IMG/VR virus record: IMGVR_UViG_3300042691_004699
Location: 1 to 24,059 of that record
DNA length: 24,059 bases
From: a virus
Reading direction: 5' to 3' (one strand)
Part shown: positions 11,648-18,411 of the stretch, piece after piece
How positions within the stretch are numbered: the stretch's first letter is position 1
Layout of the letters: each line of letters starts with the position of its first letter
The notes under the pieces: model-generated
The model's database searches: none
Seen by the model: the letters and a program-made list of their open reading frames with translations, nothing else
Told to the model about the DNA's origin: nothing
Made by a program: the position numbers and the translations under genes

Positions 11648-12988
11648 CTAAACTACTGTAGAGCCAGCAAAGGCGTCACAGCTAAACGATACGGTTGTGC
11701 GTAAAGGAATCATGTCTTCTGTAAAGTAGGTGTGATTAATTGACATGTTTGTTATCCATCCAACAAAAGAAAGTTGCTGCTGAGCATTAGGGCCAAATCT
11801 GAAACCAAGAAGGCTCGGAGATAGGAACCCAATGTTAGCTGTCTTCTTAAGCATAAGGGTTGCCCACTCACCAGAGCCTTGATTAGCACCGTTTCCGTTT
11901 AGGGCCTTGAACAAATACTCAAGGTCAGCCATGGTTCCAAACTTCATTAGGTCATTAATTTTCTCCATATTTACAGACCCAAGTGCAGACGGGTAATAGC
12001 TCATAGCACTAGTTGGTATCTTGGAATACCTACTCTCTCTAACCTGTGGGCTGTTTGCGTTTACCTCTACAGCTTTTGGATGGTTCATTGAGTTTGCGTA
12101 TGTATCCCCAGCCATACTTCTAAAAGCTGCAAAGTCATTTACACGGTCTAACATAATTTGAAATTGATAAGTCTCTTGCCCAGGGAAGGCACCAGCTACT
12201 GAACGGAATCGGTCAGCTGATGATGGGGTTACGTCCATGTTTCGTGCAATAGAAGACGAAATTGTTTCTGGGTTCCATAAGAATTGAAAACCATATTTAT
12301 AGTTGTTTTCTTTTCCAGAGCTCTGCTTTAATAGTTTATTTGCTGCATCTCCTTTGGCCTTCGCTTGTATCTGAGCGGCGCTTGTGACTACTGTTTGACC
12401 GTTTTCTTCTTTAACAGCAGAAATATCGCTTCCGTTACTCCAGTGCCAAATGACACCTCTACGTAGTCTGTGGAAGTCACCTTCATGATTATTCTGTGCA
12501 GTATTTCCTTGACCTTCAGTACCGTCTACACGGTGTGGTCTTACAGGCAGACTCCACTTATGTGGTGGTAAGTTGTAGTCATAATCTCTTGGAGGAAATG
12601 ATTTGTTAGGCTTTGTATCTGGAGTGTTGTTACCTACCAAGTCACCATATTCTTTCACAGCTGTTTTCTCTAACGCTTTTCCAATAAGAGTTAGCCCTAG
12701 TCCAACACCGAGTCCAGGTAATCCACCTACTCTTACAACCTTACCTGCTCTACTAAGGGCGACACCAACAGCTTGACGGTTAAGTCCAGAGCCAGCAACC
12801 GTAGAGGCAGCCGCAGCAACAGCAACTGTGGGGGCTGCTGATGACGCAATACTTCCAGCCGTAGTTGCTGCAACGCTAGCGTTAGCTAAGTTGTTAATTC
12901 TTTTTAAAGAAGATGTAGTTTTAACTGTATCTTTTTTTACAGTAGCTTTCTTTTTTTGAAGTGCCTGTGGTGGAACAAAGTATGGCAT
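11648..12988 (-). CDS. tube-initiator-like protein (Afp7 / CIS_tube type)
   Basis: A 446-residue protein. Residues 1-110 are an Ala/Gly-rich, partly hydrophobic stretch with a glycine-rich segment (VGGLPGLGVGLGLTLIG), probably helical. The C-terminal 220 residues look like the contractile-injection-system tube-initiator fold: YGFQFLWNPETI near 229 (compare the f.fNP start), QFQIMLDRV, and a closing LSFVGWITNMSIN block near 404 followed by FTEDMIPLRTTVSFSCDAF. In Afp7 this fold and a LysM domain are one protein; here LysM is the separate next gene. The start shares TAATG with the tape measure stop. The role would be to seed the inner tube on the hub. The family call rests on motif resemblance only. 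Confidence 0.62.
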   Translation of the reverse strand: MPYFVPPQALQKKKATVKKDTVKTTSSLKRINNLANASVAATTAGSIASSAAPTVAVAAAASTVAGSGLNRQAVGVALSRAGKVVRVGGLPGLGVGLGLTLIGKALEKTAVKEYGDLVGNNTPDTKPNKSFPPRDYDYNLPPHKWSLPVRPHRVDGTEGQGNTAQNNHEGDFHRLRRGVIWHWSNGSDISAVKEENGQTVVTSAAQIQAKAKGDAANKLLKQSSGKENNYKYGFQFLWNPETISSSIARNMDVTPSSADRFRSVAGAFPGQETYQFQIMLDRVNDFAAFRSMAGDTYANSMNHPKAVEVNANSPQVRESRYSKIPTSAMSYYPSALGSVNMEKINDLMKFGTMADLEYLFKALNGNGANQGSGEWATLMLKKTANIGFLSPSLLGFRFGPNAQQQLSFVGWITNMSINHTYFTEDMIPLRTTVSFSCDAFAGSTVV

Positions 12989-15261
12989 TAGTTTTTAGCC
13001 GCCTTATCTAGAGTCTCTGAGTTTGATAGAGCCGCCTTTAGGGCTGCAATATTGTCTGATGGGCTTCCTCCACCTGATAGGTTTACGGTAACACCGCCAT
13101 AGTTGTATGTGGTTGCGCCTACTTGAGATGTAGTCTTTAATGCTGGGCTTGACATAGAGGTAAAGCCCTTTAGTAAGTCTGATATTAAGTTTTTGTTACT
13201 TGTCCCATCTTGAGTGAACAACTTAGACCAACTAAACTTTGTATCATCCCCGCCTTTGTTCTTTGAGGCAGAGGCAAAAGTAGACCTATCTGAACCACCC
13301 TCACCTTCTGGATTGTTGTTACCAAGTACAGACTTAGTAGACCAAGAGCTCCAGTTATAACCCTTTTGAGACATGTGATAGGCAACTCGTGCGTTTGTCT
13401 CTGCATCATATAGGTCATTTACTGAACCTAGTTTAAAAGTCTTGCCGTCTGCAGCTTTCCAAGATTTATTTAGGCGTTCATTCATAAGGTCGCCGAGCAT
13501 GTTAATTTGGAATAGACCATAAGAGAGGTCTCCACCGTGTGGGTTAAATGCATATGGGCGTCTACCAGATTCAGCTCCCGCAATTTTTAATGCGTTTGCT
13601 AATCCTTGTCCTTCAAATCCTGCTCTTTCTAAAACTTTCTTTAACTCATCTGGGCTTAACTGCTGTGCTCCAGAACCCTTAGGTCCTGTAAACTCCCCAT
13701 TGTGTGGGTGTCCTGGGTATGCAGGGCCACCCGCATGTCGGAATGGGTGGTTCTTTAACTCGTGGTTAGGAACAATAATGCCTGGCTGTTCAGGGACGAA
13801 TAGCTCAGGACCCTGCTCACCTACAACATATGGCATCTTTCCACCAACAGGTCCGCCCTCTGCTTTAAACATGTTGCCAAGCAAACCGCCTAGCAGTGGG
13901 CCCGCAGCAAAGTTAACAGCTCCAGATAGGATACTGCCAAGACCGCTAGACCCCAGCGTAGTAACGCCGCTTTTAATTGCGCTTAACCCAGAGAACAACC
14001 CAGTAAACCTATCAATTAAATTCATAAATCCAGTGAAGTAACTAACAACACGGTTCGCTGCTGTAAACGCGTCAGACATAGCGGGGGCTGCTTGTTGTAA
14101 GTTTCTAGTAGACTCAGTAATTCTCTGACTTAAAGAGCTGACTGCAGGTGTAGTAGCTCCGTATTTTTCTCCCAGTTTTTTAAGGTCTCTACCAGCAAAC
14201 CCTACACCGCCGCTTCTGGCTTTAAGCATAAGTCCATCTTCTACTTGCTTACGAAGTAACGGGTCGTTTCCAAAGTACTGGTCAAGCATAGATGCAAGAG
14301 CGTTACCAGGCTGTAGAGATATCTGAACATCTTGTACAGTGATGGGTTCGTTACCCATCTTTTCTCTCATTAACTTAGACCAAATTTCGTCAATAATTTG
14401 TGGCATAGGTTTCATAGAACCATCTTCACCACGAATACGAATACCAATACCGCGAAGCATATTAACGTTACGACCCTGTTGTAGTGCGCCGTATGCTCTC
14501 ATTGAACCTTCAACACCAATACCAGGAGTGATGTTAGACATCTGCGCTGTGCCTAGCGCTACGCTTGCAAAGTTAGGTCCACCAATACCAAGCTGTCGTG
14601 CAGCTTCCATTGCTTGTACAGTGTCAAACTTACCTGTAGTTGTTCCACTACGTCCTAGTTGTTGGAGTAGAGCAGTTGCTCTTGCGTAGTCGCTGTTAGG
14701 GTCTGGGTTACCTGGGATTAAATTAGAGAAAGGTCTGATTCTTCCACCAGGCTGATAAGAGGCTTGCTGTTGATAGAACACCATTCTTTGAGTAGCAAGT
14801 TCATATTCAACAGCTTCTTTTGCGGTAGGCATTGCAGCTATACCACCAACAGCACCGCCCATTAAACCGCGCTGCATAGCAGGAGACATGCCCCCACCGC
14901 CACCACCCGCACCTGTCGGTGCGCCTGTGTAGTATGTAGGTAGAGGGCGGTATGGTTCTATACCAGGAGCATTAAACAGTCGGTTATGACCAGACTGTTC
15001 GTACATGTAACCCTGTGATGTGTCACCTAGGGTTGTTACATTAAATACTGGTACAGGAGCAACAAGATTGTTACCAGGCTGTCCGTAACCACCGCCGCGG
15101 CCACCCAGCTTTCCCATCGCTCCACCGAGTAGGCTTGACCAACCTCCCGTGTCTTGCTTTAGGAGGTTCATCTCCTGTCGCAGTGAGGACAGGCCAGTTC
15201 TTAGGGATGAGATAAACGCGGCAGCGTTAGAGCTACCCATGTTAAGGTCTTCTCTTGCCAT
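12988..15261 (-). CDS. tail tape measure protein with lytic transglycosylase domain
   Basis: The start is the ATG at 15261, with AGAGGA five bases upstream; the in-frame GTG at 15264 would be too close. The protein has 757 residues. The N-terminus is Gly-rich (about 40-140). A helical middle has a hydrophobic glycine-rich stretch near 430-455. EGGPVGGKMPYVVGEQGPELFVP (two adjacent parts, about 466-490) is a tape-measure hallmark. Residues about 545-645 form an SLT/lysozyme-like domain with AESG (catalytic Glu near 561), SYGLFQIN near 578 and a closing NWSSW, so it probably cuts peptidoglycan during injection. At about 1.5 Angstrom per residue the tail would be near 110 nm. The C-terminal ~110 residues are low in motifs. 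Confidence 0.87.
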   Translation of the reverse strand: MAREDLNMGSSNAAAFISSLRTGLSSLRQEMNLLKQDTGGWSSLLGGAMGKLGGRGGGYGQPGNNLVAPVPVFNVTTLGDTSQGYMYEQSGHNRLFNAPGIEPYRPLPTYYTGAPTGAGGGGGGMSPAMQRGLMGGAVGGIAAMPTAKEAVEYELATQRMVFYQQQASYQPGGRIRPFSNLIPGNPDPNSDYARATALLQQLGRSGTTTGKFDTVQAMEAARQLGIGGPNFASVALGTAQMSNITPGIGVEGSMRAYGALQQGRNVNMLRGIGIRIRGEDGSMKPMPQIIDEIWSKLMREKMGNEPITVQDVQISLQPGNALASMLDQYFGNDPLLRKQVEDGLMLKARSGGVGFAGRDLKKLGEKYGATTPAVSSLSQRITESTRNLQQAAPAMSDAFTAANRVVSYFTGFMNLIDRFTGLFSGLSAIKSGVTTLGSSGLGSILSGAVNFAAGPLLGGLLGNMFKAEGGPVGGKMPYVVGEQGPELFVPEQPGIIVPNHELKNHPFRHAGGPAYPGHPHNGEFTGPKGSGAQQLSPDELKKVLERAGFEGQGLANALKIAGAESGRRPYAFNPHGGDLSYGLFQINMLGDLMNERLNKSWKAADGKTFKLGSVNDLYDAETNARVAYHMSQKGYNWSSWSTKSVLGNNNPEGEGGSDRSTFASASKNKGGDDTKFSWSKLFTQDGTSNKNLISDLLKGFTSMSSPALKTTSQVGATTYNYGGVTVNLSGGGSPSDNIAALKAALSNSETLDKAAKN

Positions 15262-15263
15262 CA

Positions 15264-15428
15264 CTATCCTCTAGGTTGATATCGTTGGGAACGTTCTAAC
15301 CAGTTCTGTCTTTCACGAACTGATAAGGCGCGTATGTCTGCGAGTGTCCAACCAGTAAAAGCTCTTGTTAGAACTTCATACTGGTCAAGTAGCTCTTCGT
15401 AATCTGGTTCGCTATATACGAAACAAAT
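15264..15428 (-). CDS. tail assembly chaperone extension, reached only by frameshift
   Basis: A 54-codon frame runs from just after an in-frame TAG (15429-15431) to a TAG at 15264, two bases before the tape measure ATG. It contains no ATG, GTG or TTG codon, so normal initiation is not possible. The encoded peptide is protein-like (EPDYEELLDQYEVL, then LADIRALSVRERQNWLERSQ). It overlaps the end of the zinc-ribbon gene by 17 bases. Position and layout match the G/GT chaperone arrangement before tape measure genes in many tailed phages, where a fraction of ribosomes shift frame. The frame is +1 (equal to -2) relative to the upstream gene. Chance or a true degraded gene is possible but less likely. 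Confidence 0.68.
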   Translation of the reverse strand: MCFVYSEPDYEELLDQYEVLTRAFTGWTLADIRALSVRERQNWLERSQRYQPRG

Positions 15429-16206
15429 CTAGCAAGCTAAGCGGTAGAGAAATATCTTCACCGCATGCCTTGCAAGCTTTCTTCACCTCCCCAAGGCGAG
15501 GGCCTGGGTTGCGTTTGATAATCTCGTCGATTACGCGGGTGCGGTCTGCCATACCAAGGGATAGTGCAGTACCAGCTCCAACAGATGGTTCACCGTTTAT
15601 TGAAACAATACATCCAGATAGTAAGAGTGTATTAATCTCAGCTGATGTCTTGTCGTAGTTTTCCATCAGCCTTTTTTGTGTTATTCCGTTTGGAAGAGCC
15701 ACAGTTACTGGACCTTGCTTAGTATCCATAACCCATACGCGGTCTCCCACTGGGTCTTTCAATCTAACAACAGGGACATCTTCTGTTAAGTCAATTGTTG
15801 TCTCATGCTCGTCTTGGCAAGAGAAACACTTAACCATTAGGTTAGATGTCTGTCCAAATGTAACTCTTCTAATACCTAGAAGGATTGCGTCACGGTCTCC
15901 CGATAGCAGCATATCTAGGTCGTCGGCTGTGGCTTCCTTGTCTCCAAGCTTAACCAAGCCTCTGGCTAGTAGAACGTTAAGAGCTTTTCCTGAAGAGCCT
16001 GACTTAGCTACAGCTTCTTCATCTGCTCCTGTTAGTTCCCTAACCTCTGCCGAAGTGTGCAGTTCACCCTTAAGGTCAACAAAACCACCAGGCAGTTCTA
16101 CCTCTGACTCAGAAGGCGCCCGCGTCTTAATCTTCGGCGCGGGCTCCTCTGAAATCTTTTCAGCGAACTGTTGTAGTAATTGTGCATCGGTAATAATGTC
16201 TGACAT
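15412..16206 (-). CDS. tail assembly chaperone / T4 gp26-like zinc-ribbon protein
   Basis: A 264-residue protein between tail tube and tape measure genes. It has two CxxC pairs, CFSC near 124 and CKAC near 243, which form a probable zinc ribbon split by a long insert. A strand-rich middle contains PVTVALPNGITQKRLMENYD. Its place corresponds to the tail assembly chaperone (gpG, P2 gpE), and zinc-ribbon proteins of the T4 gp26/gp51 baseplate type occur here in other contractile phages. The N-terminus is acidic with a PAPKIKTRAPS linker. The ATG at 16206 has AGGAG seven bases upstream. The end overlaps a frameshift-only ORF, which strengthens the chaperone reading over a structural baseplate role. 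Confidence 0.68.
   Translation of the reverse strand: MSDIITDAQLLQQFAEKISEEPAPKIKTRAPSESEVELPGGFVDLKGELHTSAEVRELTGADEEAVAKSGSSGKALNVLLARGLVKLGDKEATADDLDMLLSGDRDAILLGIRRVTFGQTSNLMVKCFSCQDEHETTIDLTEDVPVVRLKDPVGDRVWVMDTKQGPVTVALPNGITQKRLMENYDKTSAEINTLLLSGCIVSINGEPSVGAGTALSLGMADRTRVIDEIIKRNPGPRLGEVKKACKACGEDISLPLSLLDLFRI
15420..15423 (-). other. candidate +1 ribosomal slip site (TTT-C)
   Basis: The zero-frame codons before the stop are GAT TTG TTT CGT ATA TAG. A Phe-tRNA on TTT (15421-15423) can move one base forward to TTC, its better match, after which the extension frame continues GTA TAT AGC GAA. The shift must happen between 15428 and the zero-frame stop at 15412, and this is the only clean +1 re-pairing I find there. 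The product would be about 313 residues. Confidence 0.45.
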
Positions 16207-16227: not shown

Positions 16228-16893
16228 TTAAAGCTTTCCAGTATCCTTACGCTTGTAATCATCACCAGTAAAGAATACTGATAGACCTTCGTGAACTAGT
16301 GACATTGACTCATAAAGAATCGCTCCGTCAGCAGCATTTAGGTCTGTATAGTTTAGCGTAGTAATCCAAGCGTTATGAATCTTGAATCCCATACGTGGTG
16401 TGTTGTCATTTACAGTTGTGGTTGCTGCGTTTGTAGCAGTGTTTGGGTGGTCCATAACATAGACAGTGATGTCTACGCGGAAGTTCTTGTCCACTCCAGC
16501 CTGACGCATTGCAATACCTTCACCTGAAGATGTAGCAAACAGTCCACGCATCCAAGTAATAGCTTGGTCGTTTCCGTAAAGGACACCACGCTGCATAGTA
16601 ATTGGGCTGAAAGTAGTCATACCTGGTACCTGGTGAACAGTGGTGTTGTAGCCACCTTCACGGTACTGGATTGACTGTGTGTTAATGCTTAGACCAGAGA
16701 TTTGTGAGAAACCGCCAATCCAGCTAGTAGAGACACCAGAGGTTGCTGGTTCTGTGCTTGAGCCAGTTAGGATTTTATCAGTGAACGGTGCGCCACCTGC
16801 TGCGGGTGTAAACTGTGCATAAAATCGGAACGAGCGTAGCGGGTCAGTCGCTAACTTTGAGAAGCGATTGATGATACTTGAAGGGGTTGTCAT
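16228..16893 (-). CDS. tail tube protein (gp19-like)
   Basis: A 221-residue protein of the T4 gp19 / contractile tail tube family, which stacks in hexamers to make the inner tube. The motifs are DPLRSFRFYAQF near the start, GGFSQISGLSINTQSIQYREGG in two adjacent parts (about 60-81), ITMQRGVLYGND (about 97-108), and the C-terminal strands WITTLNYTDLNA and SMSLVHEGLSVFF. The order GFSQISGL, then EYREGG-like, then TMQRG, is the family hallmark. GGAGAG precedes the ATG. It follows the sheath gene directly, with a short gap, as in T4, P2 and eCIS clusters. Confidence 0.94.
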   Translation of the reverse strand: MTTPSSIINRFSKLATDPLRSFRFYAQFTPAAGGAPFTDKILTGSSTEPATSGVSTSWIGGFSQISGLSINTQSIQYREGGYNTTVHQVPGMTTFSPITMQRGVLYGNDQAITWMRGLFATSSGEGIAMRQAGVDKNFRVDITVYVMDHPNTATNAATTTVNDNTPRMGFKIHNAWITTLNYTDLNAADGAILYESMSLVHEGLSVFFTGDDYKRKDTGKL

Positions 16894-16908: not shown

Positions 16909-18411
16909 TTACGCAACAGTAACGGTGGTTCCACCGTCAAACTGGCCAATTTTGATGATTACGAATTCGGCTGGACGCTGTAGGGCAACGCCAACTTCAA
17001 TGTTTACTTGGCCTTGGTCGATTAGGTACTGAGGGTTGTTCTCAGCATCAACCTTGACAAAGAATGCCTGGCTAGGAGTAGTGCCGCGTAGGCCTCCCTG
17101 TGACCAGAACTGTGTTAGGAATGAAGACACTGTTGCATCTAGACGACGCCACAATCCTTCGTTGTTTGGCTCAAAGATAGCAAACTGAGTAAGGTCTGTA
17201 AGAGACTTACGTAAGTAGATAAGCGAACGACGTACTGGTACGTACTTATCAATGTAGCCTGCCTTAAGAGTTCTTGCTCCCATTACCACATAGCCTGAAC
17301 CTGGGATAAAACGGATAGCGTTTACAGGTGCTGCAGCTGTGTTAAGAGAGTCAAGATTTGCATTTGTAAGCTGACGTGTTGATACAACACCAGCAAGACG
17401 AGCCTGCAAACCAGCGGGCGCCTTGTAAACTCCACGAGAGTTATCAGTAGTAGAGATGAGACCTGCTACAGCAGCTCCCGCACCCACAGTTAAAGTTCTA
17501 CCAGTGGTAGCTCCAGGAGCTAAAGTTGGGTCTGTAATAGTAAGAGGTGGGTAGTAAACAGCAGCTAGAGAGCTTGGTGTGTATTGACCAGAACGTACAA
17601 GTTGGTCTGCTGGAGTGTTGTCAATTCCATCAACAACTACAAACACATCATCGCGACCTTCAGCGTAGCTGATTGCAGCGTTGACAATGTTCACAGCTGT
17701 CTGACCTGGCAAGTTAAGAACCAAAGACTGAAGGACAGTATCATGTGCTGCAAGTCCTGCTGAGTATTCAGTAACTGAAACTGCGTTTCCGACTGAACCA
17801 CCAGCAAGTGGCTGGTTAACAACAACAGCTGGGTTTCTTGTGGTTCCAGTGTTTGAAGAGTTTAGGTCTGTCAAAGTTACGTAGTTAGATACCACGTTAA
17901 CATTTGTTGGTGCGTAGCGTGCGTCAGATGCTGTCATTGATAGCTGAGTGAATGTCTCTACAACGTTAGAGTCTGTTGTACCGCCGCTATAGACAACTAG
18001 GTCAAAGTAGCCAGTCTCAATAGAGTTAGAGATAGAAATGTTTAAATCGTTACCCCAACGACCTGGGTTCTTAGCAGCTACCTGAAGAGTTGCTGAAGCG
18101 CTAACAGCTCGGTCATTAAGTGAGCGTGTAGAAAGACCTGGGCTTGCTGCAACACGTGTTACGTAAAGCTGGCTTCCCCCATTTGAGAAAAACATATAAA
18201 CTGCAAGTGGTACATCATTGTTAGTGTAAGAGTTCCAAGAACCAAATAGTGTTACGTACTGGTTCCAAGATGTTACAAGTGTAGGGGTGTTAATAGGGCC
18301 ACGGTCGTCTTCACCAACAAAAGCTGTAATAAACTCTGAGTTGGTGCCAGCGATTGGCTGTACAGGGTTTAACGTTTCTTGAACGTATACCCCAGGGCGT
18401 TGAAATGCCAT
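16909..18411 (-). CDS. contractile tail sheath protein
   Basis: A 500-residue tail sheath. The N-terminus FQRPGVYVQETLNP is the classic sheath opening, the donor strand that links neighbouring subunits. It is followed by FVGEDDRGPINTPTLVTSW and a VPLAVYMFFSNGGSQLYVTR block. The C-terminal domain has IRFIPGSGYVVMGARTL, the RRSLIYLRKSLTDLTQFAIFEPN stretch (two adjacent parts), and ends in EVGVALQRPAEFVIIKIGQF. The variable middle (about 130-290) is the outer domain. AAGGAG lies nine bases before the ATG. Sheath plus tube establish that the phage has a contractile tail. Confidence 0.96.
   Translation of the reverse strand: MAFQRPGVYVQETLNPVQPIAGTNSEFITAFVGEDDRGPINTPTLVTSWNQYVTLFGSWNSYTNNDVPLAVYMFFSNGGSQLYVTRVAASPGLSTRSLNDRAVSASATLQVAAKNPGRWGNDLNISISNSIETGYFDLVVYSGGTTDSNVVETFTQLSMTASDARYAPTNVNVVSNYVTLTDLNSSNTGTTRNPAVVVNQPLAGGSVGNAVSVTEYSAGLAAHDTVLQSLVLNLPGQTAVNIVNAAISYAEGRDDVFVVVDGIDNTPADQLVRSGQYTPSSLAAVYYPPLTITDPTLAPGATTGRTLTVGAGAAVAGLISTTDNSRGVYKAPAGLQARLAGVVSTRQLTNANLDSLNTAAAPVNAIRFIPGSGYVVMGARTLKAGYIDKYVPVRRSLIYLRKSLTDLTQFAIFEPNNEGLWRRLDATVSSFLTQFWSQGGLRGTTPSQAFFVKVDAENNPQYLIDQGQVNIEVGVALQRPAEFVIIKIGQFDGGTTVTVA

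Follow-up and report, generated by a model that had tools for sequence, protein, structure and literature searches.

The junction between the tail assembly chaperone (TAC) gene and the tape measure gene of this phage very probably directs a programmed +1 ribosomal frameshift, by which the longer version of a T4-like TAC is produced. Its sequence features are a conserved and selected extension without a usable start codon, a fixed UUU-C and synonymous constraint at the E- and P-site codons, from which we infer the occurrence of shifting, its +1 direction, its rate and its function.

Gene order and junction

The window, by which we mean the whole 24,059-base stretch of the virus record IMG/VR IMGVR_UViG_3300042691_004699, carries a contractile-tail module on the minus strand. 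In this module, a tail sheath gene (16909..18411, minus strand; phrog_23, E 1.9e-44) and a T4 gp19-like tail tube gene (16228..16893, minus strand; PF06841, 84.3 bits) precede the gene of the short chaperone TAC-N (15412..16206, minus strand), which was assigned from Pfam and PHROG matches and synteny. The 264-aa protein is T4 gp26-like and matches PF12322, the known TAC family of T4 gp26 and gp51, with 34.1 bits against a Pfam cut-off of 24.5, and it also matches the phrog_150 baseplate hub family (E 3.6e-7). It contains two CxxC pairs (C127/C130 and C245/C248), all four cysteines of which are invariant in 12 compared sequences, so that the label "zinc ribbon" given to this gene by an earlier sequence-only reading is reasonable. 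The next gene, identified by domain and PHROG searches, encodes a tape measure protein with a lysozyme-like domain (12988..15264, minus strand, with GTG at 15264 or ATG at 15261 as start). The order of tube gene, PF12322 gene and tape measure gene is the placement known for G/GT systems. A DnaB-like replicative helicase is encoded at 2-1201, in the same orientation as the tail module. Residues ~549-643 of the tape measure protein (PF18896, lysozyme-like) share ~45% identity with a protein of three small Streptomyces phages of 18 kb (WheeHeim, Forthebois and RickRoss). This protein is annotated there as "glycosyltransferase" and is probably a lytic transglycosylase-type enzyme. Actinobacterial relatives give a hint, and only a hint, as to the host of the phage.

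The TAC-N gene ends, read on the minus strand, with ...CTA GAT TTG TTT CGT ATA TAG, the last codon being its zero-frame stop (15412..15414, minus strand). Overlapping this end, the +1 frame has 54 codons without a stop (15428-15267, minus strand) between TAG at 15431-15429 and TAG at 15266-15264 and contains neither ATG nor GTG nor TTG, exactly as the sequence-only reading had described it. The same reading had placed a TTT-C in the last codons of the gene, which we find at 15423-15420 on the minus strand, and had dismissed stop readthrough, which we reject likewise because the zero frame meets a TGA after eight further codons. Based on the conservation and the synonymous constraint described below, we assign TTG TTT CGT (15418..15426, minus strand) as the E-, P- and A-site codons of the shift site. 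Within it, TTT-C (15420..15423, minus strand) is the proposed place at which the Phe-tRNA re-pairs from UUU to UUC; it is the sole in-frame TTTC of the TAC-N gene, and no long homopolymer is present at the window's site. The extension, TAC-C, comprises 51 codons in the +1 frame (15264..15419, minus strand) from GTA at 15419-15417 up to the TAG at 15266-15264, and this stop overlaps the start of the tape measure gene.

In the proposed mechanism, most ribosomes would terminate at TAG and release TAC-N. On the others, the Phe-tRNA would slip forward by one base from UUU to UUC and GUA would be read next, TTTC thus being read as one Phe step. The predicted product is the 313-aa TAC-NC (15264..16206, minus strand), which would run through ...SLLDLF/VYSEPDYEELL... 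(the slash marks the shift) and end at the tape measure start; the tryptic junction peptide expected for a +1 shift at UUU is ACGEDISLPLSLLDLFVYSEPDYEELLDQYEVLTR. If lambda gpG/gpGT is taken as the model, TAC-N would coat the tape measure protein, with the extra domain serving to recruit the tube protein.

Collection of relatives

The family of the window protein belongs mostly to uncultured phages and ranges from IMG/VR contigs to Streptomyces phages. Three scans of viral contigs, two led by the window protein and one by its Streptomyces phage relatives, provided the best 80 of 99, the best 80 of at least 585 and the best 80 of 315 relatives, and further loci came from a scan of bacterial genome contigs and from named phage records. 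The first set of 86 (80 loci, five Streptomyces records and the window) contained 83 complete TTT-C junctions with an open +1 extension, two loci being cut off and one having an earlier stop. Complete junctions of this kind were found in 73 of 76 loci of a second set (one cut off, one with the extension running off the contig, one on the earlier-stop contig) and in 72 of 73 of a third (one match began outside the gene). Eight of nine bacterial genome loci had TTT-C and an open +1 extension, the ninth being a Lysobacter MAG (L246). Altogether, 177 loci were taken, which are partly redundant (the 83 from the first set were not dereplicated, and many are copies of the same contigs); they correspond to 144 distinct gene-plus-extension sequences and, after clustering of the fusion at 90% identity, to 79 representatives.

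Since entry to the 177 required TTT-C within the last 20 codons of the gene, the excluded loci bear on how its conservation is to be read. Four were incomplete: in L022, L045 and L115 the gene is cut off, and in L137 the extension runs past the contig end. The only complete loci that failed the entry rule are L060, L126 and L192, each of which is otherwise explained: L060 and L126 are a single contig with an earlier in-frame stop, and the L192 match starts upstream of the gene on a contig shared with L049, which passes. Hence, no complete and intact junction of the window's family without TTT-C was found among the matches listed. The Lysobacter MAG locus was kept out because both frames are open. 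On the L060/L126 contig, a TAA lies in frame in the first CxxC region, yet the DLFRI end and the +1 extension are intact, and this early TAA is either a sequence error or the mark of a decayed gene. Seven of the bacterial loci (L239-L245) are chaperone relatives with a TTT-C junction on genome contigs of Streptomyces (five), Nonomuraea and Saccharothrix. These are likely prophages or phage remnants, because the chaperone gene of L239 is flanked by a sheath-like ORF before it and a tape-measure-like ORF of 1,090 aa after it.

The extension as a selected coding sequence

Under a rule blind to the motif, which calls a frame open when it runs on for 35 codons or more beyond the zero-frame stop, the +1 frame alone is open in 78/79 representatives and both the +1 and the -1 frame in 1/79. 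Stops occur in both other frames of all 100 distinct extensions of 45-53 codons. When representatives are compared in 150 gapless pairs, pN/pS has a median of 0.32 in the +1 frame versus 1.09 and 1.98 in the other two, and the +1 frame has the lowest value in every pair, a pattern in which purifying selection is seen to act on the extension in the +1 frame only. The extension is 45-59 codons long in 72/79 representatives and 72-81 codons long in the remaining seven, so that scattered stops, which would have spoken against the sequence-only reading, are not seen in the relatives' frame. Searched alone, the extension has no match to PHROGs or Pfam at E <0.01. It is annotated as a separate small CDS in four of the five Streptomyces phage records (LuckySocke, BRock, GiJojo and Alone3; L081, L082, L083 and L087), while no CDS is annotated in the extension of pSt2308 (L084) and a joined frameshift CDS is annotated in none of the five.

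Conservation of the proposed shift site

TTT followed by C occupies the P site in 79/79 representatives, and the A site holds a sense codon (CGN, CAR or CTS) in all of them, namely CGC in 36, CGT in 21, CGA in 8, CGG in 1, CAG in 4, CAA in 4, CTC in 4 and CTG in 1. With CGN thus in 66/79 and with TTG in 59, CTG in 12 and other codons in 8 representatives at the E site, the junctions have the sequence features of the UUU_C(GN) class described by Firth et al. 2012. A conserved slippery site as in G/GT systems is present, which is substantiated by synonymous constraint. In Fitch counts on a FastTree tree of the 79 representatives, the shift Phe underwent 0 synonymous changes versus 4-26 at 12 other two-fold columns, and the E-site Leu 5 codon changes versus 13-44 at 16 other Leu columns. 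The lowest two-fold control, with 4 changes, is the Phe of the TFG motif, which indicates that Phe columns are slow to change anyway. Elsewhere in the same genes, Phe is encoded by 182 TTT and 151 TTC codons, and the nearly invariant TFG Phe by 60 TTT and 13 TTC (Fisher p 4e-5 versus the shift Phe, with relatedness ignored). The high-GC actinobacterial genome loci are a stronger test of TTT fixation as judged from codon usage: their shift codon is TTT in 7/7, while TTT makes up 51/418 of their other Phe codons.

The location of the shift is narrowed by the upstream stop of the +1 frame, which lies as near as 5 nt before TTT; the shift must therefore take place within the last few codons. Among these near-end codons, TTT alone keeps its first two base pairs on a +1 slip, and it does so in 79/79 representatives. 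The claim of the sequence-only reading that this frame, reached by +1 or -2, is entered by a shift at the end of the upstream gene is thus supported, with +1 favoured by the re-pairing at TTT, and both the extension frame and TTT-C, whose conservation it had proposed to check, are kept in all 79 representatives. The zero-frame stop lies one codon past the A-site codon, 9 nt from the first U, in 59/79, and its distance from the first U varies among 9, 12, 21 and 24 nt.

Context and possible stimulators

In-frame TTT-C occurs 18 times, the shift site included, in the 24 CDS counted on the contig. Hence, the tetranucleotide alone is insufficient and its context must matter; the best candidate for this context would be the fixed E-site UUG. 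In the window, TTT is rare among Phe codons followed by C (TTT-C in 18/193 TTT versus TTC-C in 29/90 TTC; Fisher 4e-6), and the TAC-N genes of the 79 representatives have TTT-C in 10/182 TTT versus TTC-C in 28/151 TTC. This scarcity may mean that shift-prone UUU_C is avoided, or it may be a codon-context bias of the ordinary kind. A pause at a rare A-site codon is unsupported, since CGU is the commonest Arg codon by the contig's own usage (14.1 per 1,000).

RNAalifold on 40 of 60 freshwater-group representatives returned no consensus RNA structure after the site and five weak pairs, all of them upstream. For the 80 nt past the A-site codon, the mean folding z-score of the representatives is -1.20 with 16/79 below -2, whereas a control stretch taken from these genes gives -0.66 and 8/79. 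We thus see a slight folding excess after the site and no shared structure. The window itself reaches -3.62 for the 80 nt from the site and -2.82 for the 80 nt past the A-site codon, and these z-scores point to a possible RNA stem 35-74 nt past the first U of the site (15349..15388, minus strand) which is not conserved in the family. No Shine-Dalgarno-like conservation was detected in the 60 nt upstream of the site in 60 representatives.

The wider PF12322 family

Wider PF12322 relatives were classed by their open frame with the motif ignored, which left 5/115 loci unclassable (2/80 and 3/35 in the two groups). In the group of the Flavobacterium and Microcystis phage type, the +1 frame is open in 78/78 classed loci (of 80), in six of them together with the -1 frame, and the TTT_Y closest upstream of the stop reads TTT_C in 19 loci and TTT_T in 59. 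In the group of the Bacillus SP-15 and Listeria LIS04 type, the +1 frame is open in 29/32 classed loci (of 35), and the -1 frame in 3/32, at U-runs. These +1 loci comprise 20 with TTT_C (19 distinct sequences; A site CGT in 15, CGC in 2, CGA, CAC and CAT in 1 each), one with TTT_T and 8 with neither. Six of these 8 SP-15-type loci with an open +1 frame and no TTT_Y near the end (L354, L357-L359, L363 and L364) read AAT CCC AGT, where a +1 slip on CCC is possible. Named records with an open +1 frame are SP-15, LIS04, Streptococcus phage GXN1 (TTT CGT), Flavobacterium phage immuto and Microcystis phage Mel-JY01; those with an open -1 frame are Atu_ph07 and XacN1, and two further giant phages have one frame each, one +1 and one -1.

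At the Lysobacter MAG locus, the +1 frame is open for 53 and the -1 frame for 47 codons past the stop, and the extension-like sequence lies in the -1 frame following a U-run, from which we infer a -1 shift there. It shares an extension in the -1 frame near U-runs with L251, L253 and L367-L369. When the window's extension was compared by hhalign with nine other distant PF12322 loci, only the Lysobacter MAG was significant (probability 72%, E 3.4e-5 for a single comparison). As judged from open frames and motifs, +1 shifting at UUU_Y is probably common across the PF12322 family, and the direction of the shift has probably changed within it. At U-run sites, a -2 shift is on pairing grounds as possible as a +1 shift, which is not the case at UUU_C sites.

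Alternative explanations

One alternative to a +1 shift is a -2 frameshift as in phage Mu, according to the accessible part of PMC3498833 the only natural programmed -2 case known at that time. It would reach the identical frame and add one residue (LLDLFF/VYS), and U-run relatives (59/78 of the Flavobacterium and Microcystis phage-type loci) re-pair at -2 equally well. Re-pairing two bases back with the first two bases kept is, however, found in just 1/79 representatives at each of two codons, against 79/79 for +1 at TTT, and the C that always follows TTT is needed by a +1 but not by a -2 shift. We favour +1, since a slip of that size leaves the first two base pairs intact at TTT alone and does so in all representatives, and rate -2 as quite improbable. 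A +1 slip of another kind, with UUG and UUU slipping in tandem or with the nearby stop exerting an influence, has a similarly small chance. The E-site UUG is fixed to a similar degree and the stop follows one codon after the A-site codon in most representatives, but UUG does not re-pair with UGU, and the stop lies outside the A site while UUU occupies the P site and, as noted, varies in its distance.

We consider it very unlikely that the extension is a separate small gene, translated without any fusion through re-initiation or an unusual start. The overlap of the stop with the extension would suit such a gene, as would the presence of ATG, GTG or TTG by extension codon 12 in 52/79 representatives and the CDS of its own in four of the five Streptomyces phage records. 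Against this, the annotated starts fall inside the conserved extension, 10/79 representatives including the window have no ATG, GTG or TTG anywhere in the frame, and there are only eight Shine-Dalgarno-like contexts, in seven representatives, at no common place and all ahead of the shift site (codons -10 to -15). A consistent normal start, another finding that would have counted against the sequence-only reading, is accordingly not seen in the relatives, and an internal start is rejected as a general explanation, the frame being start-less in the window and nine further representatives. A separate gene would also leave the fixed UUU-C and UUG unexplained. Formally, any frame change could be an indel, and a sequencing or assembly error or transcript slippage would mimic a junction of this kind; we regard this as exceedingly improbable, as the same frame relation recurs in 144 distinct sequences, isolated Streptomyces phages included, the window's site has no long homopolymer and the extension is under purifying selection.

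Discussion

G/GT is the textbook -1 switch of tailed phages, and a large family with +1 shifting at UUU_C would amount to a natural set of sites that show no evident conserved RNA stimulator. From these sites, the codon rules that +1 shifting follows at the E, P and A sites could be deduced by evolutionary comparison and then examined in E. coli. Such a family would tie a motif proved in a eukaryotic virus to bacterial ribosomes, and it would account for small ORFs ahead of tape measure genes that are absent from phage records or start wrongly there, which is useful to gene finders. Beyond the window's own family, we find it reasonably likely that UUU_C(GN) +1 slippage is an old and widespread route to the long tail chaperone in PF12322 contractile-tailed phages of several bacterial phyla (actinobacterial, Bacillus/Listeria/Streptococcus, Flavobacterium and cyanobacterial) that operates without a conserved RNA structure or Shine-Dalgarno stimulator and corresponds in bacteria to the UUU_CGN signal of eukaryotic RNA viruses, with tuning by the E-site UUG and with switching of direction between +1 and -1 (at U-runs) within one gene family. 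In the open-licence papers searched, no literature linking UUU_C +1 shifting to a phage tail chaperone was found, and a +1 shift in T4-like TACs may be in print; as far as the searchable papers show, the use of UUU_C for the G/GT switch appears new.

Like lambda gpG/gpGT, the window has a gene pair before the tape measure gene, a second frame without a start and a predicted short and long chaperone (excerpts of PMC5009743). In the lambda model given there, the short form binds the tape measure protein and the extra domain brings the tube protein. Lambda and most described cases shift -1, whereas in the window's family the +1 frame is open with the -1 frame closed in nearly all representatives and the site is UUU_C. 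T4 gp26 (208 aa) and gp51 (249 aa) both match PF12322, and gp51 continues for ~48 residues beyond the match; T4 therefore seems to encode the short and long forms as two separate genes, unlike the window with its one gene and a frameshift. Vladimirov et al. 2022, a study cited in PMC12846349 and PMC10885494, reportedly assigned T4 26/51 as TAC-N/TAC-NC. By eye, the extension pattern GW-L--I--L--RER--W resembles gp51, but comparison with the gp51 C-terminus by hhalign is not significant (probability 0.5-2.4%), and the best block of the fusion lies elsewhere.

The +1 direction was called unusual in the sequence-only reading. This holds against the experimentally studied cases, which are mostly -1, but not within the PF12322 family, in which +1 is the rule, nor in view of the SEA-PHAGES annotations, in which 350 of 2,718 positives are "forward" cases, reported without experimental tests in the accessible part of the PRFect paper (PMC10885494). 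G/GT frameshifts are described as mostly -1 and as very likely +1 in the haloarchaeal myovirus HSTV-2 in the excerpts of PMC5009743, so that a +1-type TAC shift had been proposed earlier both there and in the SEA-PHAGES "forward" TACs. The TACs of Vandenendeviridae and Andersonviridae share with our case the argument from frame and motif conservation and differ in shifting -1 at a GTTTTT U-run (PMC12846349, as excerpted). HK97-like TAC fusions tested elsewhere shifted at 6-7%, according to the available text of PMC3711429. A Listeria phage and RF2 likewise use bacterial +1 P-site slippage, but at CCC_UGA (or CCC before a pseudoknot) and at CUU_UGA with an upstream Shine-Dalgarno sequence (excerpts of PMC5009743 and PMC3711429), in contrast to the sense A-site codon of the window's family.

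Schwartz and Curran 1997 are said to have worked on UUU-pyrimidine sites. UUU_Ynn is called especially prone to +1 shifting in bacteria in the excerpts of PMC5009743. As far as the accessible part of PMC3498833 goes, a +1 shift at UUU_CGU in influenza PA-X was proved by peptide sequencing, and a UUU_C class with CGN preference was predicted in closteroviruses, amalgaviruses and others; Firth et al. 2012, in the excerpts available, left open the use of such motifs beyond eukaryotic viruses, in cellular genes. The window's family resembles these UUU_CGN sites in its P-site UUU followed by C, its CGN-preferring A site and its restricted E site, and it differs from them in its bacterial ribosomes, in the gene concerned, in an E site of UUG/CUG rather than UCC and in CAN or CTN A sites in some members.
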